From: Natronorubrum thiooxidans
GTDB taxonomy: Archaea > Halobacteriota > Halobacteria > Halobacteriales > Natrialbaceae
DNA: 64,000 bases
Assembly: GCF_900156475.1 (NCBI RefSeq)
Contig: NZ_FTNR01000001.1
Location: forward strand, 248,001-312,000
Direction of reading: 5' to 3'
In this document: positions 30,158 through 40,023 of the stretch, piece after piece
How positions within the stretch are numbered: the stretch's first letter is position 1
Layout: the number at the start of each line of letters is the position of its first letter
Notes under the pieces: generated by a model
Told to the model about the DNA's origin: nothing
What the model saw: only the letters and a program-made list of their open reading frames with translations
Databases searched by the model: none
Program-made: the position numbers and the translations under genes

Positions 30158-31327
30158 TCAGTTGATCGAGACCCACTCGCCGCGCTCGTCGCTCGCTTCG
30201 ATCGCTGCGAGCACGCGCTGGGCAGCGAGCCCGTCCGCAAAGCTGGGTTCGAACGTGTCGTCGGCAGCCACTGCGCTGAGGAACTCGTAGTTCTCGTGGA
30301 CAAAGGTGTGCTCCCAGCCCAGGACGTGTCCCGGCGGCCACCAGTGGTCGACGTAGGGGTCGCTCTCGTCGGTGACCAGCACCGTCTCGTAGCCGCGATT
30401 CTCGTCGGCCCGCAGTACCTCGAGTTCGTTCAGTCGCTCGAGGGAGAATCGCAGACTGCCCTTCGAACCGTGGATCTCGATCGTGTGGTCGTTTTTATGC
30501 CCCGTCGCGAACCGGGAAGCCTCGAGGGTCCCCATCGCGCCGTTTTCGAACTCGACCTGGGCGGAGTAGGCGTCGTCGACGGTCACGGCTCGCATCTCAT
30601 CGTGCTCGACGGCTTCGCCGTCTTCGTTCCCTCGAGACTCCGCTGGAGTCTCGCTCTCTACAGGTCGCTCGTCGACGAACGTCTTGAGGTGGCCGCTGAC
30701 GCGTTCCATCTCGCCCGCGAGGTCGTCGTCGCCGACGAGGAATCGAAGCAGGTCAACCGTGTGGGCACCGAGGTCTCCCAGCGCACCCGACCCTGCCATC
30801 TTTGCGTCGTTGCGCCACGACCACGGAGCCTCGGGGTCGACCAGCCAGTCCTGGAGGTAGCGCCCGCGGACGTGGTGAATCTCGCCGAGTTCGCCGGCCT
30901 CGAGCAGCCCCTTGGCGTGTTGGATCGCGGGCACGAAGCGGTAGTTGAACGCGGTGCCGTTGGGAACGCCAGCCTCGTCTGCGACGTCGGCCATCCGCTC
31001 TGCGTCCTCGAGCGTCGGCGCGAGGGGCTTTTCACAGAAGACGGGCGTGCCGGCCTCGAGGGCGGCGATCGAGGGCTCGGCGTGGACGTGGTTCGGCCCG
31101 AGGTTGTAGAAAACGTCGACGTCGTCGACGACAGTCTCCCAGTCGGTCGCGATCGACTCGAACCCGAGCCGATCCGCCGCGTCCGAAAGCGCGGCTTCGT
31201 CGCGGCCGACGAGTACGCTGCGTTCGATATCCGGCGCGTCCGGGAAGAACATCGAGAGCCGCGACAGGGCGTTTGCGTGGGCTTTCCCCATAAATCGATA
31301 GCCGAGTACACCGACTTCGAGCGTCAT
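30158..31327 (-). CDS. Gfo/Idh/MocA-family oxidoreductase (copy 1)
   Basis: A 389-residue dehydrogenase. The N-terminal Rossmann half starts VGVLGYRFMGKAHANAL (the usual GxGxxG is here GYRFMG) and carries the CEKPLAPTLEDAERM segment with the catalytic-region lysine of EKP. The C-terminal half is the open-faced beta-sheet substrate domain (GSGALGDLGAHTVDLLRFLVG). The family oxidises sugars or cyclitols with NAD(P). Residues ~218-240 form an acidic insertion. It is one of two such enzymes in the cluster. A 16-bp sequence shared with the ABC operon promoter lies 13-28 nt before its ATG. Confidence 0.9.
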   Translation of the reverse strand: MTLEVGVLGYRFMGKAHANALSRLSMFFPDAPDIERSVLVGRDEAALSDAADRLGFESIATDWETVVDDVDVFYNLGPNHVHAEPSIAALEAGTPVFCEKPLAPTLEDAERMADVADEAGVPNGTAFNYRFVPAIQHAKGLLEAGELGEIHHVRGRYLQDWLVDPEAPWSWRNDAKMAGSGALGDLGAHTVDLLRFLVGDDDLAGEMERVSGHLKTFVDERPVESETPAESRGNEDGEAVEHDEMRAVTVDDAYSAQVEFENGAMGTLEASRFATGHKNDHTIEIHGSKGSLRFSLERLNELEVLRADENRGYETVLVTDESDPYVDHWWPPGHVLGWEHTFVHENYEFLSAVAADDTFEPSFADGLAAQRVLAAIEASDERGEWVSIN

Positions 31328-31339
31328 GCATACTCATTC

Positions 31340-31355
31340 ACAATAGGTGTAGTTA
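31340..31355 (-). promoter_or_regulatory. shared 16-bp promoter element, copy 1
   Basis: ACAATAGGTGTAGTTA differs at one base from the copy at 38615-38630. Here it lies 13-28 nt before the Gfo/Idh ATG, that is over the expected TATA position, where a bound protein would compete with TBP. The core ACA-N5-TGT is a short dyad. Confidence 0.55.
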
Positions 31356-31429
31356 GTGCTTTTCGTCACGAGTGACAGTCTCACGATCCGTGATGAATCG
31401 ACTCGGGAGACGGTTGAGGTAGCGACGCG

Positions 31430-32392
31430 CTACTCGGCCCAGTACGCTGCGCCGGGCTGTTCGCGGAAGACGGCTCGCTCGAGGAGATCGACGGCTTTTT
31501 CGAGGCCTTCGCGGGAACTCGTCAGCGAGTCCTCGTGTTCGATGCTCAACGCGCCGTCGTAGCCGACCATTCGCAGCGTCGAGACGACGTCCTTCCAGTG
31601 GTCTTCGCCGTGGCCGTAGCCGACTGAGCGAAAGAGCCACGAGCGATTGGCTTCGTCGTCGTAGTCGGTCGTGTCGAGGACGCCCTTCTCACGTGCCTGC
31701 TCCTCGTAGATCCGCGTGTCCTTGGCGTGGAAGTGGTGGATCGCGTCGCCGAGGTGTCGGATCGCGTCAGTGATCGAGATGCCCTGCCAGTACAGGTGTG
31801 AGGGGTCGAAGTTCGCGCCGACGCGTTCGTTCGTCGCCTCGCGCAGGCGAGCCATCCCGTGAGGTTCGTAGACGAGCATGTTCGGGTGCATCTCGAGTGC
31901 GAGGTCGACGCCGTGGTCGTCGGCGAACGCCGCGAGGTCGGCCCAGTACTCGATCGCAACGTCCCACTGGTACTCGTGGGCGTCGGCATGTTCGCTCGGC
32001 CACGGCGCGGTGATCCAGTTTGGCACCTCGTCGTCGGGGCCGCCCGCGGGCAGGCCCGAGAAGCAGGTGACGGTGTCGACACCGAGTTGGTCGGCGAGAC
32101 GGATCGCTTCGCGGAGTTCGGTATCCGCGGTTTCGGCTTGCTCGTCGTCCGGATGGAGCGGGTTGTTGTGCGTCGCAAGGGCGCTGATTCGCATGTCGTA
32201 CTCCGCGAGGAGGTCGTGCAGGTCTGTCTGGGCGTCCTCGTCGTCGAGGTAGTCCCGGCGGACGAGGTGGGCATCGCCGGGGTAACCGCCGACGCCCGGT
32301 TCGATCGCGTCGACGCCGATTTCGGAGAGATAGTCGAGGGCTCCCTCGAGCGATTCGTCTGCCAGTGGCGGGGTGTGTACGCCGATATCCAT
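31430..32392 (-). CDS. sugar isomerase/epimerase-like TIM-barrel protein
   Basis: A 320-residue AP-endonuclease-2/xylose-isomerase-like TIM barrel. It opens with IGVHTPPLADESLEGAL and shows the family metal-ligand segments: LALEMHPN (Glu), ANFDPSHLYWQG (Asp, His), HFHAKDTRI (His, Asp) and a C-terminal LSIEHEDS (Glu). Relatives isomerise keto-sugars or dehydrate inosose (IolE/IolI). Together with two Gfo/Idh enzymes this suggests an oxidation-isomerisation route for a cyclitol or sugar. A TATA box and a dyad precede it, so it is transcribed separately. Confidence 0.88.
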   Translation of the reverse strand: MDIGVHTPPLADESLEGALDYLSEIGVDAIEPGVGGYPGDAHLVRRDYLDDEDAQTDLHDLLAEYDMRISALATHNNPLHPDDEQAETADTELREAIRLADQLGVDTVTCFSGLPAGGPDDEVPNWITAPWPSEHADAHEYQWDVAIEYWADLAAFADDHGVDLALEMHPNMLVYEPHGMARLREATNERVGANFDPSHLYWQGISITDAIRHLGDAIHHFHAKDTRIYEEQAREKGVLDTTDYDDEANRSWLFRSVGYGHGEDHWKDVVSTLRMVGYDGALSIEHEDSLTSSREGLEKAVDLLERAVFREQPGAAYWAE

Positions 32393-32416
32393 ACGTGAGA
32401 TTCGAGGACCTTGTCC

Positions 32417-32456
32417 AGTATAAATTCACCGGATGCAATATTGTAATTTAATTGCA
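32417..32456 (-). promoter_or_regulatory. isomerase-like gene promoter: TATA box plus upstream dyad
   Basis: AATTTATACT on the minus strand (32417-32426) lies about 30 nt before the ATG at 32392. Upstream, TGCAAT (32434-32439) and ATTGCA (32451-32456) form an 11-nt-spaced dyad in an A/T-rich patch, placed directly behind the TATA box where an activator would sit. Confidence 0.55.
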
Positions 32457-32541
32457 GAGGCGTCGCTGCGTACCGGTTTCTGTCTCGTACAGGGACGTCC
32501 GTCGACTCGAGTCGAATCGACCGAGCGCGTGGCCGGTCCGG

Positions 32542-33624
32542 TTAGTGGTCGTGGGGCGGCGCGTTCAGGGCAACCGTCTGCCCGTCATCGCTCGAGCGAT
32601 AGATCGCGTCGACGACCCGCTGGACCCCCAGCGCCTCCTCGAGGCCGCTCCCGACTCCGCGACCGGCGTCGATCGCCTCGTAGAACGCGCGCTGTTCGTC
32701 CGCGTGCGGGTCGTTCTCTTTCGGTTCGATCGTCGTGTCGACGAAGTGATCCGCGCCGTCGGAACTCGCCGAGTGGAGCGTGAGTTCGTTCTCGAGCAGG
32801 TTGAATCGGGCCGCAGCGTCCGTCCCTCGAACGACGAACTCGTGGGTCGGTGGCCGGTTCGTCGCCCAGGCAACCTCGAGTGAGATCGTCCGGTTGTCAG
32901 CACAGCGGATGAAGCTGCTGGCGGAGTCGTCGACGTCGAACGCGTCGGGGCCGTTGTCATCGCCCCACATTTCGAGGTAGGTGTAGTCCTCGCGCGAGCC
33001 GAACGCTGATCGGGTGACACCCGAGACTTCCTCCACGGTCGGTTCGCCGAGTAGGTACAGCGCGAGGTCGATAGCGTGGACGCCGAGATCGATGAGTGCG
33101 CCGCCACCTGAAATCTCGCGCCGGGTGAACCACGAGCCACGGCCCGGGACCCCCCGCCGGCGGACGTAGTTGGCCTCGACGTGGGTGATCTCGCCGAGTT
33201 CGCCGCTGTCGATCCGCTCTTTGAGGAGCCGGACCGTGTTCCGGAATCGATTGTTAAACCCGATCATGCACGTGCCATCAGTCGTTTCGGCCGCGGCAGC
33301 GATCCGTTCGGCACTCTCGAGGGAGTGGGCCAGTGGCTTCTCGAGGAGTGTATGGAGGTCGCGCTCGAAGGCGTCGACAGCGTAGGCCTCGTGGAACTTG
33401 TTCGGGGTCGTGATCACGACAGCATCGGCGACGTCGTAGAGGTCGTGATGATCGTCGTAGACGTCGACACCGTAGCGCTCGGCGAACCGATCACGGGCCT
33501 CGGCCGAGACGTCCATCCCGCCGACGATCGGAACGCCGAGTTCCTCGAGTCGGTCGGCGTGGTACTGGCCGATGTTGCCGAGGCCAATGATGCCGGTTCG
33601 GACGGCTGGTGGCTCCGACGTCAT
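32542..33624 (-). CDS. Gfo/Idh/MocA-family oxidoreductase (copy 2)
   Basis: A 360-residue dehydrogenase of the same superfamily as the 30158-31327 gene but clearly distinct. The Rossmann motif is canonical (IIGLGNIGQYHADRL), LLEKPLAHSLESAERI carries the EKP motif, and GGGALIDLGVHAIDLALYLLG marks the sheet domain. NAD-linked oxidation of a sugar or cyclitol is expected. It lies 60 nt after the small membrane protein at the end of the CUT1 transporter genes and is probably the last gene of that operon. Confidence 0.9.
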   Translation of the reverse strand: MTSEPPAVRTGIIGLGNIGQYHADRLEELGVPIVGGMDVSAEARDRFAERYGVDVYDDHHDLYDVADAVVITTPNKFHEAYAVDAFERDLHTLLEKPLAHSLESAERIAAAAETTDGTCMIGFNNRFRNTVRLLKERIDSGELGEITHVEANYVRRRGVPGRGSWFTRREISGGGALIDLGVHAIDLALYLLGEPTVEEVSGVTRSAFGSREDYTYLEMWGDDNGPDAFDVDDSASSFIRCADNRTISLEVAWATNRPPTHEFVVRGTDAAARFNLLENELTLHSASSDGADHFVDTTIEPKENDPHADEQRAFYEAIDAGRGVGSGLEEALGVQRVVDAIYRSSDDGQTVALNAPPHDH

Positions 33625-33684
33625 CGCTCCTCCACTGGGTCGGTCGCGTCGGGGGCTCGCTGCGATCGGGCGTCGTCGCTGCGC

Positions 33685-33888
33685 TTAGTACAACTGCTCT
33701 TCTCGGTCCTGTCTGTCATTGTCGTGTTCCTGTTGTCGACTACGTTCGGTTCTTGCGCGTCGATACTGTCGAATTACGGGGATGAGCTTGTTTTTGACGT
33801 CGAGTGCGAACGAGACGATCCCGTAGATCCAGAAGAAAAACAGGACCGTCAGCCCGCCGTAGTAGACGACGGCGACGAGTTCACTCAT
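33685..33888 (-). CDS. 67-residue membrane protein overlapping the ABC ATPase gene
   Basis: A small protein with one hydrophobic helix (about residues 3-27, VAVVYYGGLTVLFFFWIYGIV) followed by a strongly charged tail rich in Arg, Asp and Gln. Its ATG lies inside the last codons of the ATPase gene (8-nt overlap, 33881-33888), and GGAGG just before it is a good ribosome-binding site. Overlap of this sort implies a role with the transporter, perhaps as an assembly or regulatory subunit; I know of no named family. Confidence 0.7.
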   Translation of the reverse strand: MSELVAVVYYGGLTVLFFFWIYGIVSFALDVKNKLIPVIRQYRRARTERSRQQEHDNDRQDREEQLY

Positions 33889-35083
33889 GTTGGCCTCCTG
33901 ATTCGGCCTCCGGAGCCACGCTCGCGGTCGGCGTGGCGTCCGAGAGATCGGCGATCCCGTGGGTGATCGCCTCGCCCGAGGCCGTCTCGAACAGGTGTAC
34001 CTTCGAGCGATCGAGGACGACCGAGACGGACTCGTCCTCACCGACTTCGGTGTCCGGATCGACGCTCATCAGCAGCTGGTTCGATGCGGTCGAGGCCTCG
34101 TTGCTGGTCATCATCTCGCTGCTCGCGCCGTCGAGTGAGAGATAAATAAAGATCTCATCACCCATCGGCTCGAGGACGTCCGTTCGCGCCTCGATCGTCT
34201 CGGACGTGCTCGTCGCCGAGTCGGCCTCGCGCTCGAGGGAGATGTCCTCCGGGCGAATCCCCATCGTGACGTCGTCGTCGATGGGCTCGAGGCCGTCGGA
34301 ATCGAACTCGAGGTCGAAGTGGTCGGTCGTGAGTCCGTCGTCGGTCAGGTTGCCTTCGACGAAGTTCATCGACGGGGAGCCGATGAAGCCGGCGACGAAC
34401 CGGTTTTTGGGCTCGTTGTAACAGACCAGCGGCGGATCGATCTGCTGGAGTTCGCCAGCGTTGATGACTGCGATCCGATCGGACATGGTCATCGCCTCGG
34501 CCTGGTCGTGGGTGACGTAGATGATCGTCGTATCCAGCTGTTTGTGGAGTCGCTGGAGTTCCGTGCGCATGTGCACCCGCAGCTTCGCGTCCAGATTAGC
34601 GAGCGGTTCGTCCATCAGGAAGACGTCGGGTTTGCGGACGATCGCGCGTGCGATCGCAACGCGCTGTTGTTGTCCACCCGAGAGCTCGCTCGGTTCCCGG
34701 TCTAACATCCCCTCGAGCTGGACGACGTCGGATGCCTGTTCGACTCGACGATCGATCTCGTCTGTGTCGAACTTCCGCAGGCGGAGGCCAAAGGAGATGT
34801 TCTCGTAGACGTTCATGTGGGGAAACAGGGCGATGTTCTGGAAGACCATCGAGACCCCACGGTCTTTCGGCGGCAGGTTGGTGACGTCCGTCTCACCGAT
34901 CGTCACCGTCCCTTCTGTCGGCTTCGTCAGCCCGGCGATGGTTTCCATCGTCGTCGACTTGCCACAACCGGAGGGGCCGACGAGACAGACGAACTCGCCG
35001 TCTCGGATCTCGAGATTCATTTCGTCGACGGCGACGATATCTTCGTAGCGTTTCGTTACGTCGTCTAAGTGTACTCGTGCCAT
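33881..35083 (-). CDS. carbohydrate ABC transporter ATPase (MalK/UgpC-like)
   Basis: A 400-residue CUT1-type ATPase: Walker A GPSGCGKSTTM, Q-loop MVFQNIALFPHM, signature LSGGQQQRVAIARAI, Walker B VFLMDEPLANLD and the H-loop VTHDQAEAM. The C-terminal ~160 residues form a MalK-like regulatory (TOBE) domain (MGIRPEDISLE). One such protein normally forms the homodimer that drives both permeases. An insertion near 280-340 is rich in Ser/Thr/Glu. It starts 2 nt after the permease stop. Confidence 0.93.
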   Translation of the reverse strand: MARVHLDDVTKRYEDIVAVDEMNLEIRDGEFVCLVGPSGCGKSTTMETIAGLTKPTEGTVTIGETDVTNLPPKDRGVSMVFQNIALFPHMNVYENISFGLRLRKFDTDEIDRRVEQASDVVQLEGMLDREPSELSGGQQQRVAIARAIVRKPDVFLMDEPLANLDAKLRVHMRTELQRLHKQLDTTIIYVTHDQAEAMTMSDRIAVINAGELQQIDPPLVCYNEPKNRFVAGFIGSPSMNFVEGNLTDDGLTTDHFDLEFDSDGLEPIDDDVTMGIRPEDISLEREADSATSTSETIEARTDVLEPMGDEIFIYLSLDGASSEMMTSNEASTASNQLLMSVDPDTEVGEDESVSVVLDRSKVHLFETASGEAITHGIADLSDATPTASVAPEAESGGQHE

Positions 35084-35085
35084 GG

Positions 35086-36084
35086 TTACTCTTTAAGTGC
35101 GCCGTCGGTCAGTCCGCTCACGATCTTTTCCTGTGCGACCACGACGATGATCAACATCGGCAACACGCCGACAATACTGGCGGCTGCCATCAGATTGAAG
35201 TCCGTCGTGTACTGGGTCTGGTAGCTCAATATCCCGCCCACCAGTGGCGACCACTGCTCGGGCTGGTTCTGTAACGCCATAATCGAGCTGAAAAAGTACT
35301 CGTTGTAGACGGCGATGAACGTCAACACGGCCGCCGTGGCGACGCCGGGTGCCGAAAGCGGCATAATCACGCGAAACAGCGCGCCCAGTCTGGTCGTTCC
35401 CTCGACGCGTGCCGCATCCTCGAGTCCGTCCGGAATCTGCGAATAGAACGTGGTGAGGATGAAAATCGACAGCGGGAGGAACAACGCACTGAAGGGCATG
35501 ATCATCGAGCCCGGCGTGTTGACGAGTCGTGGCGGTTCGAACAGCTCGATGTCCAGGAACGGAATGTACACCGCGTTCCCGAGGAACGCATCGTACAGCG
35601 GGATCAGGAACGCCGCCGGCGGGAAGTACGACACTGCCAGAATGGCGAGCATCATCAGACCGCGGCCGGGGAACTCGAGGCGGCCGAAGACGTAGCCGGC
35701 GAGGCTCGCGAGCAACAGGACGATGACCGTCGTCGCCGTTGCGAGCACGAAGCTGTTGAACACGTAGAGGTGGAACGGCACCTGCTGGAACACCTCGACG
35801 AACGCGTAGACGTTGAACCCCTGTGGCGTCGGGAACGGGACCTCACCTAGCAGCGGGATCGAGACGTTCCAATCAGCCTGTCGAACGCTTGGCGTCAGTG
35901 CCAACACTAACAGCCAGTAGAACGGGAACAGCGTCGTGACGAGGAAAAACGCCGCCGCGACGTAGAACAGCGCTTTGTACAGTCGATTGCGCTTTTCCTG
36001 ATCATTGACGACGCCGTGGGTCCAGCGCTCGAGTGGTCCCATCTCGTCGTCGGCTGTCTGGGTGGAGTCGGATGCGGCCCCCAT
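35086..36084 (-). CDS. carbohydrate ABC permease (MalG-like)
   Basis: A 332-residue CUT1 permease. A ~40-residue acidic cytoplasmic N-terminus is followed by six helices; the family landmarks are FPFYWLLVLALTPS, NSFVLATATTVIVLLLASLAGY, and the EAA loop DGLEDAARVEGTTRLGALFRVIMPLSAPG. The ATG at 36084 follows the other permease stop by 1 nt and has a strong GGAGGGG ribosome-binding site. It pairs with the MalF-like gene to form the channel. Confidence 0.92.
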   Translation of the reverse strand: MGAASDSTQTADDEMGPLERWTHGVVNDQEKRNRLYKALFYVAAAFFLVTTLFPFYWLLVLALTPSVRQADWNVSIPLLGEVPFPTPQGFNVYAFVEVFQQVPFHLYVFNSFVLATATTVIVLLLASLAGYVFGRLEFPGRGLMMLAILAVSYFPPAAFLIPLYDAFLGNAVYIPFLDIELFEPPRLVNTPGSMIMPFSALFLPLSIFILTTFYSQIPDGLEDAARVEGTTRLGALFRVIMPLSAPGVATAAVLTFIAVYNEYFFSSIMALQNQPEQWSPLVGGILSYQTQYTTDFNLMAAASIVGVLPMLIIVVVAQEKIVSGLTDGALKE

Positions 36085-36085
36085 C

Positions 36086-37099
36086 TCAGAACCCCTCCTT
36101 GTACTGCTGGTAGATGACGCCCAACACGGCAATCGCAATGACGCCGGCCGTGACGAACGCGACGGCGGCCGCGAGGCCGCGGTTCGTGTTGAACGTCGCG
36201 ACGACCATACACGACAGCGATGGCACGGTCGTACAGCCCGACACCGAGTCGATGAGACCGTAGATCCGCATCGCGTCGATGGTGCGGAACAACACTGCAA
36301 TCCCGAGGGCGGGCAAGACAAGCGGGAACGTGATCAGCTTGAACTGCTGCCACTTGGTCGCGCCGGCGACTTTCGCCACGTCGTAGAGGCTCCGGTCGAT
36401 GCTCTGGAGGCCGGCGAGGATGAGCAACGCCATGAACGCCGTCGTTTTCCAGATGTCCGCGACGGTGACGATCAACAGCGAACTCATCGGATCGTTGAGC
36501 GTGTTGTCCGCGGCAACGAGGCCCCAGTTCGCCAGCGGCTCGGTGAGGAAGCCGGCGCTCGGGTGGAACATCAGGTAGAAGATCATCCCCTGGATGACGA
36601 TCGGGATCGCCCACGGGATGATGATCGCGGCGCGGACCCAGCGCCGACCCCGGAAGTCCTGATCGAGGACCAGCGCCTGCCCGAAGCCGATGATCGTCTC
36701 GAAGAAGACGCTCACGACGGTGAAAAGCAGCGTCACCGCGAGTGCGCTTCGGAGCAGTCCCTCGAGGTGGACGAACGGGAAGCTCCCACTCGTGCTCACG
36801 CCGGGCAGGAACGTCGTCGAGCCGGGGAACCGCGGGCTCGCGCCGCCGGTGAACAGCTGGACGTAGTTTTCGAACCCGACGAACTCCGGGTCAGAGAGCA
36901 CGTTCTGATATAGCGACAGCTCGAACGTCCGCAAGAGCGGATACAGCGCGATCGTCCCCAACAGGAGCATCACCGGCGTCAACAGCAGGTAGGCGAACCC
37001 CGTCTCGCCGAGGTTCTCCATCCAGCGCGTGATCGCGACGACCGGTCCCGATCGATTCGATTGCCGGGTGGGACCCGTCGTTCGGTCTTCTGTGCTCAT
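36086..37099 (-). CDS. carbohydrate ABC permease (MalF-like)
   Basis: A 337-residue CUT1 permease with the MalF-type order: a hydrophilic start, LLLTPVMLLLGTIALYPLLRTFELSLY, a periplasmic-type loop, then five helices and the EAA loop (RSLYDVAKVAGATKWQQFKLITFPLV). It lacks the long second loop of enteric MalF, as is usual outside enterobacteria. It starts 2 nt after the binding-protein stop and overlaps nothing. Confidence 0.92.
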   Translation of the reverse strand: MSTEDRTTGPTRQSNRSGPVVAITRWMENLGETGFAYLLLTPVMLLLGTIALYPLLRTFELSLYQNVLSDPEFVGFENYVQLFTGGASPRFPGSTTFLPGVSTSGSFPFVHLEGLLRSALAVTLLFTVVSVFFETIIGFGQALVLDQDFRGRRWVRAAIIIPWAIPIVIQGMIFYLMFHPSAGFLTEPLANWGLVAADNTLNDPMSSLLIVTVADIWKTTAFMALLILAGLQSIDRSLYDVAKVAGATKWQQFKLITFPLVLPALGIAVLFRTIDAMRIYGLIDSVSGCTTVPSLSCMVVATFNTNRGLAAAVAFVTAGVIAIAVLGVIYQQYKEGF

Positions 37100-37101
37100 C
37101 C

Positions 37102-38568
37102 TTACTCTTCCGTGGCTTCGAGCCCGTCCTGCAGATCAGCCGCTGCATCCTCGGGGCTTTTGTCCCCGGCAACGGCGAGGTTGACCTCCTCAGAGATGAG
37201 ACTGGACTGGTCCGGCCAGACCGTCGTCACGGGGCGTGGCATCGCATTCTCCCCGGCGACGCGTAGCGTCTGCATGTAGTTGCCCATCGGCTCGACCGAT
37301 TCGGCGTCCTCGGTGTCGAACAGGGCTGGCTTCGGTGGAACCCAGCCGTAGAGATCGAACATGCCGAGATTGAACTCGTCGGTCATCGTCGCGCGAATTA
37401 CCTCGAGTGCCTCCTCTTTGTTCTGGGAGTTGGGGTTGAGGACGATGTGCCAGCCGCCGAGTGCGGACGTCGAGCCGCCCGTTCCGGGCTGGGCGGCCTC
37501 GTCTTCGGTCACGGCGTAGGGCATCGGCATCGCGCCGTAGTCGTCGACCGTGAGATCGTCGCCTTCGTCGCTCTCGAGGTTCGTGTTGATCGCGTACGGC
37601 CAGTTGCGCTGCATGACCGCTTCGCCCGACAGGATCGCTTCACGAGCGTCTTCTTCGGTCCAGGAGGTGATATCCGAGGTGGCGAGACCGAGCGGGTACT
37701 CGTCCTCGAGGGTGTGCTCGTCGGCTTCGTCGGCGACGAACGTCCGCATCATCTGTAGCCCCTCGATGAATTCGGGTTCGTCGACGGTCACGTCTCGCTC
37801 GCCGATTGGACCGAAGAGGTCCTCGCGACCGCCGAAGTACGCGCCGCCAAACGAGGACATGACTTCGTTCCACGTACAACAGGACGTTCCCTCGTACTGG
37901 TCCCACTGGGTCGCGAGCCCGTACTCCGCGTCAGAGGCCTCGACGATCTCCTCGGTGAGTTCGGCCCATTCTTGCCAGGTCATCGGCTCGGTTGCCCACT
38001 CCTCGAAGTCGTCGTCGTCGTAGCCGGCTTCCCGAGCGTAGTCCTTGCGGTACTGCATCGTCGGGTAGTCCGGGAAGATCGGAACGCCGTAGAGGTCGCC
38101 CGTCTCCGGATCGCGAGCCGTCTGGGTAAAGGATTCGAAGTACTCGTCTTCGACGAGCGAGAGGTCCTCGTCGTCGAGTTCCTCGCTCAGATTGGCGATG
38201 TGGCCGCGCTGGATGAAGACGTTCACCCAGCCGTTGTCCATCAAGAACAAGTCCGGCTGGGTCTCTTCGGCCTGCAGCAAGTTCGTATACGAGTCTCGTC
38301 GGTCGTCCGTGTCTTCGTCGCCGGGTTGCAGCCGGATGTCGATCCCGTCGGCCCCGTTCTCCTCGAGGAGGTCGATAATCTCGTCGCCGACTGCCTCGTC
38401 GGCGTTCGGGTCGATCCCCCAGACGACGGCGTCTTCGGACGTCGAGTCGCCGTAGATACAGCCCGCGAGGCCGACTGCAGCCCCGCCTGCACCCGCTGCC
38501 TTGACGAACGTCCGCCGTGAGACGCTCGAGTTGTTATTCTCATTTGCCTGTGAGTATCTCTCACTCAT
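37102..38568 (-). CDS. carbohydrate ABC substrate-binding lipoprotein
   Basis: A 488-residue SBP_bac_1-type binding protein. A polar N-terminus ends in SRRTFVK (Arg18-Arg19), then a hydrophobic h-region and the lipobox LAGC with Cys37, so it is exported by Tat and lipid-anchored. The mature part is acidic and shows the family YRKDYAREAG and NPNSQNKEEALEVIRA segments. It binds an oligosaccharide, glycoside or polyol outside the cell. It is the first gene of a transporter operon that runs to 32542 and has a good TATA box. Confidence 0.92.
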   Translation of the reverse strand: MSERYSQANENNNSSVSRRTFVKAAGAGGAAVGLAGCIYGDSTSEDAVVWGIDPNADEAVGDEIIDLLEENGADGIDIRLQPGDEDTDDRRDSYTNLLQAEETQPDLFLMDNGWVNVFIQRGHIANLSEELDDEDLSLVEDEYFESFTQTARDPETGDLYGVPIFPDYPTMQYRKDYAREAGYDDDDFEEWATEPMTWQEWAELTEEIVEASDAEYGLATQWDQYEGTSCCTWNEVMSSFGGAYFGGREDLFGPIGERDVTVDEPEFIEGLQMMRTFVADEADEHTLEDEYPLGLATSDITSWTEEDAREAILSGEAVMQRNWPYAINTNLESDEGDDLTVDDYGAMPMPYAVTEDEAAQPGTGGSTSALGGWHIVLNPNSQNKEEALEVIRATMTDEFNLGMFDLYGWVPPKPALFDTEDAESVEPMGNYMQTLRVAGENAMPRPVTTVWPDQSSLISEEVNLAVAGDKSPEDAAADLQDGLEATEE

Positions 38569-38592
38569 AGGAAAGAATATGATAGTCTCTGG

Positions 38593-38604
38593 TATTTATA
38601 ATTA
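38593..38604 (-). promoter_or_regulatory. TATA box of the CUT1 operon
   Basis: TAATTATAAATA on the minus strand, centred about 30 nt before the ATG at 38568, with the shared 16-bp element 11 nt further upstream. Confidence 0.65.
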
Positions 38605-38614
38605 CTGGTGAGGT

Positions 38615-38630
38615 ACAACAGGTGTAGTTA
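38615..38630 (-). promoter_or_regulatory. shared 16-bp promoter element, copy 2
   Basis: ACAACAGGTGTAGTTA matches the copy at 31340 at 15 of 16 bases. Here it is upstream of the TATA box (47-62 nt before the ATG), the position where a TrmB-type regulator activates rather than represses. The TrmB-family gene next door is the natural candidate to bind it. Confidence 0.55.
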
Positions 38631-38748: not shown

Positions 38749-39825
38749 TTAAGTGATTGATTCGATCGTAATCCGTATCGCCTCGAAATCTTCGATCATC
38801 GCCCCCCAGCCACCGACGGAGTACGTGCCGTCGTCGGTCGCAAGCGTTAGCGAGGCTTCGCCTGCCAGCTGTGTAAGCGGTGTCTCACGGTCGTCACTCG
38901 TCGAGACTCCGGCGTAAGTGATGTCGGTGATCGTCCCATGTTGGGTCACCTCGTGGCCTGTATCAGTTGCGAAGCCGTGGATCGTCGCCTCGATCTGCCG
39001 GCCGTCCTCGAGCAGCGGGACGATATCCCGGAGACACTGCCGGAGATCGACGTAGGTGATCGGCAACTCGTCGTCGCGTGCCGAGTAGATCGTCTCGTGG
39101 ACCTCCCAGAGACAGGTCTGGAAGTACCAGTTGAAGACGTAGGCGTGGGTTCGATCGTCGACGATGATGCCGTACTCGTTCGTCGAGCCGCCGTGTGGGG
39201 AGAAACACGTCCACGATCGGTCGATCAACGCCAGAAACGGCGAGGGAATATCGCGATAGCGGGCCTCCGTACACGCACGGGAAAGCTCGTCGGTCGACGG
39301 TAACTCCGGCTCGGCTCCCGTCTGTGGGAACAGACAGACCTTCACGTCGACGCCGTTTTCGGTGGCCGTCGCGAGCGCATCCGAGAGGTCGCGGAACTGC
39401 GACGGCGTCAGGCCGATCTGGACCTGATTCGTGGCCGCTCGAATCAAGTCGTCGGCCTGCGCCAAGACCGTGTCGAGGCGTTTGACGATGCTGACTTTAT
39501 GCTCCTCGAGGTCAGGTCGACTCCAGCGATCCTCGATCTCCTCGGCAGCAGTCTCGAACCGGTTGGCACGCGAGCGGAGATCCGCGAGGACGTCCGCCGG
39601 ATCGTGCGCTCGAGCGTGTAAGCTGTCCTGTTCGTACGTTTCGATGTAGCCGTCATCCTCGAGGTCGCGTAGAACGTCGTAGATGCGCGGATCGGGGACC
39701 GAACTGGCCTGTGCGACGTCGGTCGCCGAGGCGGAACCGAGTCCCAGCAGCGTGACGAACGCATCGGCCTGATAGGGCGAGAGGCCCGCGTCCTCGAGCG
39801 TTTCGGTGAGTTCGTCACTGTCCAT
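38749..39825 (-). CDS. TrmB-family sugar-sensing transcriptional regulator
   Basis: A 358-residue TrmB-type regulator. The N-terminal winged helix (about 5-70) reads LSPYQADAFVTLLGLGSASATDVAQAS, then VPDPRIYDVLRDLEDDGYIE. A coiled helix (about 85-120) precedes a phospholipase-D-like/sugar-binding C-terminal region (ISPxx: VQIGLTPSQFRDL, then YRDIPSPFLALIDR). These proteins sense sugars and control transport operons in archaea. It lies just upstream of the CUT1 operon on the same strand but has its own 180-nt gap, so it is likely a local regulator. Confidence 0.9.
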   Translation of the reverse strand: MDSDELTETLEDAGLSPYQADAFVTLLGLGSASATDVAQASSVPDPRIYDVLRDLEDDGYIETYEQDSLHARAHDPADVLADLRSRANRFETAAEEIEDRWSRPDLEEHKVSIVKRLDTVLAQADDLIRAATNQVQIGLTPSQFRDLSDALATATENGVDVKVCLFPQTGAEPELPSTDELSRACTEARYRDIPSPFLALIDRSWTCFSPHGGSTNEYGIIVDDRTHAYVFNWYFQTCLWEVHETIYSARDDELPITYVDLRQCLRDIVPLLEDGRQIEATIHGFATDTGHEVTQHGTITDITYAGVSTSDDRETPLTQLAGEASLTLATDDGTYSVGGWGAMIEDFEAIRITIESIT

Positions 39826-40023
39826 CGGGAATTATCACCTGCAGTGGATCTCGAGGACTCGTCGACCGGTGACAGTCTGACGAGTGACGCTGCTGGCGGT
39901 CACTCAGCGGTGGTCGTTGGTTCGCTATCGCACGCGTGTTCATCTGGCTGAACCTTAGACCTGTTACAAAAAAAGCTACTGCTGGCGCTACACTCAAGAC
40001 AGTGCACTCGGAACGCATGGCCC
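39826..40023. other. divergent gap upstream of the TrmB-type gene
   Basis: 198 nt between divergent starts. TTACAAAAAAA (39964-39974) on the plus strand is the only clear A/T box and could be the TATA box of the 40024 gene with a leader of about 28 nt. No TATA box is evident for the TrmB-type gene. Confidence 0.45.

Follow-up and report, generated by a model that had tools for sequence, protein, structure and literature searches.

TrmB-type regulators in the archaea

The TrmB proteins of Halobacterium and Haloarcula (VNG1451C and TrmB-Har) combine an HTH with a sugar-binding domain and recognize a palindromic site whose position relative to BRE/TATA predicts the sign of regulation (PMC10817205, PMC4158304). 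With these proteins, as with TrmBL1/Tgr, activation generally goes along with a site upstream of BRE/TATA, and repression with a site over the BRE or downstream of it (PMC10817205, PMC4158304). The operator of the haloarchaeal protein is TACT-N7-8-GAGTA (PMC4158304), and its regulon is global. In Pyrococcus and Thermococcus, the TrmB gene stands beside its target, an ABC sugar transporter operon (trehalose/maltose), and the site, TACT-N3-AGTA, overlaps the transporter BRE/TATA and represses. TrmBL1/Tgr of the Thermococcales uses one operator type, TATCAC-N5-GTGATA, which lies on the upstream side of TATA in some promoters and on the downstream side in others; the regulon exceeds 30 genes in T. 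kodakarensis, and autoregulation has been proposed for Tgr.

The locus considered here lies in a 64,000-nucleotide stretch of the genome of Natronorubrum thiooxidans (the window). Like the Pyrococcus and Thermococcus protein, its regulator has the TrmB domain architecture and is encoded beside an ABC sugar transporter operon, although at the transporter the site precedes TATA. As with TrmBL1/Tgr, one operator type occupies different positions at different promoters and autoregulation is suspected, but the regulon appears local. It differs from the Halobacterium/Haloarcula system in that the regulator is a paralogue, the sites read ACWAC-N4-GTTGT rather than TACT-N7-8-GAGTA, and only two of them occur in the genome. 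The operator ACWAC-N4-GTTGT had no match in the TrmB literature searched.

The gene cluster and its probable pathway

All of the genes are on the minus strand:

38749-39825, minus strand: TrmB-family regulator; HTH with Y49/D50, effector domain with G339/E345
37102-38568, minus strand: CUT1 substrate-binding protein (SBP) bearing a TAT signal, its gene the first to follow operator 1; PF01547, nearest solved relative a trehalose/maltose-binding protein
36086-37099, minus strand: CUT1 permease A, an open reading frame syntenic in relatives
35086-36084, minus strand: CUT1 permease B, an open reading frame syntenic in relatives
33881-35083, minus strand: CUT1 ATPase of the UgpC/MalK type; PF00005, OB_MalK
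33685-33888, minus strand: 67-aa membrane protein, conserved at this place (ATPase on one side, Gfo/Idh-2 on the other) in almost every cluster locus
32542-33624, minus strand: Gfo/Idh-2 oxidoreductase, nearest solved relative DgpA
31430-32392, minus strand: xylose-isomerase-like TIM barrel; PF01261, with 2-hydroxy-3-keto-glucal hydratase (8ro4) among its few solved relatives
30158-31327, minus strand: Gfo/Idh-1 dehydrogenase, its gene preceded by operator 2; among named families closest to levoglucosan dehydrogenase; 6a3f

The 67-aa protein has one predicted hydrophobic stretch and is conserved in other haloarchaeal families as well.

Oxidation-elimination-hydration-reduction routes are found in Bacillus smithii and Agrobacterium (PMC7676230, PMC10628242). 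The levoglucosan cluster of B. smithii (LacI, ABC transporter, lgdA-B1-B2-C; PMC7676230) likewise joins a sugar ABC transporter, Gfo/Idh and TIM-barrel-like enzymes and a local regulator; unlike the haloarchaeal locus it is bacterial, uses a LacI regulator and has separate eliminase and hydratase genes. Compared with the four-enzyme set LgdA-B1-B2-C (3-dehydrogenase, eliminase, hydratase and reductase), the enzymes here are two Gfo/Idh proteins and one TIM barrel, and no separate eliminase was seen in the cluster. The resemblance of the cluster and its CUT1 transporter to these routes makes an oxidative glycoside pathway probable. The substrate is not fixed as levoglucosan, since Gfo/Idh-1 scores 342.7 bits against levoglucosan dehydrogenase (NF052479), for which the equivalog cut-off is 650. 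A literature search for levoglucosan in haloarchaea returned a single item, which was unrelated, and a keyword search for a 3-keto-glucal pathway returned nothing useful.

The regulator

That a TrmB-family gene adjoins the operon, as had been proposed, is borne out by profile scores for the 38749-39825 protein of 189 bits for PF11495 and 52.9 bits for the HTH family PF01978 (cut-off 25.6). The Tyr-Asp pair of the recognition helix is present in the sequence RIYD, the surrounding segment VPD(P/A)RIYDV is constant in the TrmBs of the motif-bearing genomes, and the sugar-binding residues G339 and E345 align with G320 and E326 of P. furiosus TrmB. Against NF047392, the model for Halobacterium-type TrmB, the local protein reaches 165 bits where the cut-off is 500. 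A second full-length TrmB elsewhere in the same genome (G000:C11) reaches 612 and is the orthologue of the characterized protein. By these scores the local regulator is a member of the TrmB family but not the orthologue of Halobacterium TrmB, and transfer of function by orthology was rejected on the same figures.

The shared element in the window and in the genome

The original prediction was that a 16-bp element is shared, at 15 of 16 positions, by the promoters of the CUT1 operon and a Gfo/Idh gene. Both copies match exactly at the predicted places: ACAATAGGTGTAGTTA (31340-31355) and ACAACAGGTGTAGTTA (38615-38630). Elsewhere in the 64-kb window there is no match at up to three mismatches; the expectation for this pattern is 0.09 matches, and none of 100 shuffled windows held two. 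The accompanying claim that the element is found nowhere else in the window stands for intact copies; it fails for a third copy at 39953-39970, in the TrmB promoter, which has decayed but is recognizable through its orthologues.

A search of the 4.2-Mb genome, proposed along with the prediction, yielded these two sites as the sole matches at up to two mismatches, not many unrelated occurrences. Ten matches at three mismatches are background, because the reversed control pattern gives 29. A larger hidden regulon in N. thiooxidans was therefore rejected. The pair by itself is modest evidence, since 16-mer pairs of this quality are not rare in the window: 1028 agree at 15/16 or better, mostly GC-rich, with seven rows at a GC content of 45% or less. 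The question of chance is decided by conservation across genomes and not by the repeat in the window.

The transporter promoter

For comparison, 125 Natrialbaceae genomes were used, 44 of which carry the local TrmB (identity at least 62%). The elements of the transporter promoter are:

38615-38630, minus strand: operator 1, TAACTACACCTGTTGT, in the CUT1 operon promoter; exact match, present in 43 of 43 readable orthologous promoters
38593-38600, minus strand: TATA box TATAAATA of the transporter operon, recognized from its sequence and aligned across 43 genomes

The consensus (G/A)TTAACWACAnCYGTTGTA, or a close variant, occurs in the SBP promoter of all 43 readable TrmB-bearing genomes. In the 44th (G092) the locus is split between contigs, and the site is present beside TrmB there as well. 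Only promoters with the core pattern went into the SBP matrix, yet no readable SBP promoter adjacent to TrmB lacked that pattern. In the window 14 bp separate the end of operator 1 from the TATA box, and in relatives the distance is 14 bp (n=15) or 15 bp (n=28), with nearly random bases farther upstream. The core is an imperfect palindrome, ACWAC-N4-GTTGT, which becomes perfect (ACAACAGGTGTTGT) in several genera.

Homologous SBP promoters in other haloarchaeal families (L085, L093, L109, L113, L122) have related inverted repeats upstream of TATA, some of them wider, such as ACTAC-N7-GTAGT. This suggests drift of the operator.

The Gfo/Idh promoter

The second site overlaps the core promoter of Gfo/Idh-1:

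31340-31355, minus strand: operator 2, TAACTACACCTATTGT, at -28 to -13 from the ATG (full site -29 to -12), over the TATA-like CTAAC; exact match
31337-31362, minus strand: Gfo/Idh core promoter, with AAA at -35 to -33, CTAAC at -29 to -25 and AA at -11/-10

In relatives operator 2 keeps a fixed start at -29. When 93 Gfo/Idh genes with their own promoters were aligned on the start codon, AAA, CTAAC, AA at -11/-10 and a pyrimidine at -1 were found with or without TrmB. The promoter is apparently of the leaderless type, with the start codon at the start of the transcript. The left part of the shared element (CTAAC) belongs to the core promoter, because it is kept in genomes without the local TrmB; the TrmB-dependent portion is the remainder, about -23 to -13.

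The Gfo/Idh gene occurs in 120 of the 125 genomes and is far commoner than the local TrmB. With a matrix trained exclusively on transporter promoters, scores above 8 were obtained at 29 of 38 Gfo/Idh promoters in TrmB-bearing genomes versus 6 of 55 in the others; p-values for such contrasts are descriptive, the genomes being related and their independence overstated. The same contrast is clear within three genera (g1, g16, g22) and not in g17 or g20. In genus g24 the site is mostly missing despite TrmB, and it is retained without a local TrmB in G011, G027, G082, G095, G104 and G118.

A third operator ahead of TrmB

Scanning of the clusters with the SBP matrix also found sites ahead of the TrmB gene. 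In the window this promoter contains:

39953-39970, minus strand: third operator of the TrmB promoter, here decayed to TTTGTAACAGGTCTAAGG; relatives have the intact form TTTACAACAGGTGTTATA
39815-39943, minus strand: short upstream open reading frame of 42 aa, which begins 27 nt after the first base of the third operator and whose end overlaps the TrmB start codon

A site of the TTTACAA(C/T) type is present in the TrmB promoter of 29 of the 44 genomes. In N. thiooxidans and three of its close relatives this operator has decayed to TTTGTAACAGGTCTAAGG, which is why it is not visible from the window alone. In relatives a short reading frame, which terminates at or close to the start of TrmB, usually has its ATG 28-29 nt downstream of the operator. 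Should the transcript begin at this ATG, the register would be the one seen at Gfo/Idh. The short frame was rejected as a conserved peptide, its position being conserved and its peptide sequences unrelated among relatives. The overlap with the TrmB start could reflect translational coupling.

Association of the motif with the local TrmB

TAACWACNNCNRTTGT is found in 42 of 44 genomes with the local TrmB versus 8 of 81 others, and the reversed control is rare. For four of those eight (G042, G043, G048, G119), the motif is near a more distant TrmB gene. Where the SBP gene is far from TrmB (G110, G113), its site is kept. Where Gfo/Idh is far from TrmB (G009, G010, G097), the right half (TATTGT) is kept, with partial degeneration of the left half. 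In G112, which has no local TrmB, the SBP homologues have no site, nor do the second copies in G111 and G114; the G086 homologue retains a half-degenerate one.

The motif is absent from promoters of the paralogous transporter beside the Halobacterium-type TrmB, both here and in 20 relatives, and a motif common to all TrmB-linked transporters was therefore rejected. The paralogous SBP promoters (L259, L263-L282) have a different conserved stretch in many genomes, e.g., TTATTACACCATTTATTGCCAA, perhaps the site of another regulator. Matches to TAACTACACATATTGT in other genera were considered as part of the cluster and rejected, as they belong to the promoter of a ROK-type sugar kinase-like gene. 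A related element, TACTTAACTACACATATTGTACTC, occurs in the promoter of such a gene in several genera (L017, L018, L027, L034, L036-L042; position about 1501).

The link to TrmB drawn in the original prediction is sustained by co-occurrence, loss within genera, retention in trans, the site in the TrmB promoter and the negative result at paralogous promoters. It had to be qualified in that the regulator is not the Halobacterium TrmB orthologue and CTAAC is core promoter. Taken together, the comparisons strongly support assignment of the motif to the adjacent TrmB-type gene.

Regulatory model and alternatives

The shared element is very probably the operator of the 38749-39825 regulator, which would activate from upstream and repress from over TATA. 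A dimer would recognize the near-palindrome ACWAC-N4-GTTGT. Operator 1 precedes BRE/TATA by an almost constant 14-15 bp, the position from which other archaeal TrmB proteins activate, and binding there would activate the transporter. At operator 2, bound protein would block TBP, TFB or the polymerase and so repress Gfo/Idh. The third operator of most relatives, decayed in the window species, would bring about autorepression of TrmB. A sugar or pathway intermediate in the C-terminal domain presumably switches binding, and the regulon may serve glycoside uptake and oxidative cleavage.

The positions were as first described: upstream of TATA at the SBP promoter and over the TATA-like element at Gfo/Idh, the arrangement expected of dual regulators such as TrmBL1/Tgr and TrmB. 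By the position rule, activation of the transporter, repression of Gfo/Idh and, in relatives, self-repression of TrmB are therefore predicted. The model agrees with the promoter architecture and the TrmB precedents. It is nevertheless counter-intuitive that uptake and oxidation of the same substrate should be regulated with opposite signs.

Uptake and oxidation of one substrate would usually rise together, and a model in which the same regulator and operator drive both promoters in the same direction is thus a live alternative, if a rather doubtful one. TrmB could, for example, repress both until a sugar releases it; as a variant, it could be a sugar-dependent activator of the transporter that only fine-tunes Gfo/Idh. 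The transporter and dehydrogenase do look like steps of one pathway. In P. furiosus the transporter operon is under repression by TrmB; that of Sulfolobus is activated by MalR with maltose (PMC4158304). Set against this are the placement of operator 1 well upstream at near-constant spacing and of operator 2 over the core promoter, positions that in Haloarcula mostly predict opposite signs.

It is improbable that the motif is bound by another protein, such as the Halobacterium-type TrmB G000:C11. The genome does encode this second full-length TrmB, orthologous to a characterized regulator, and some genomes without the local TrmB keep the Gfo/Idh site; but the motif tracks the local TrmB, lies in that gene's own promoter in relatives and is missing at the transporter beside the other TrmB. 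Hardly any weight attaches to a chance repeat or a generic core-promoter element of the lineage, despite the abundance of 15/16 pairs in the window and the presence of CTAAC as core promoter in TrmB-less genomes. In 43 genomes the complete site reappears at a single transporter promoter although the sequence on either side has diverged; it occurs nowhere else in the genome beyond its two places, and the reversed control is rare. A chance repeat was rejected on this cross-genome conservation, which the window alone could not supply.

To return to the preferred model of opposite control, its fullest form is quite possible: a TrmB subfamily separate from the characterized haloarchaeal TrmB, with its own operator, would switch uptake and the oxidizing step of glycoside 3-oxidation in opposite directions and repress itself in most relatives, with repeated loss of the regulator and its operators within the family.

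Significance

For an uncharacterized TrmB subfamily, present in 44 of 125 Natrialbaceae genomes, the locus offers a local regulon that can be tested. A single operator type occurs here in two strict registers, a clean natural setting in which to test whether the place of a site relative to TATA determines the sign of archaeal regulation. The cluster is also a sign that haloarchaea are likely to have an oxidative glycoside pathway.
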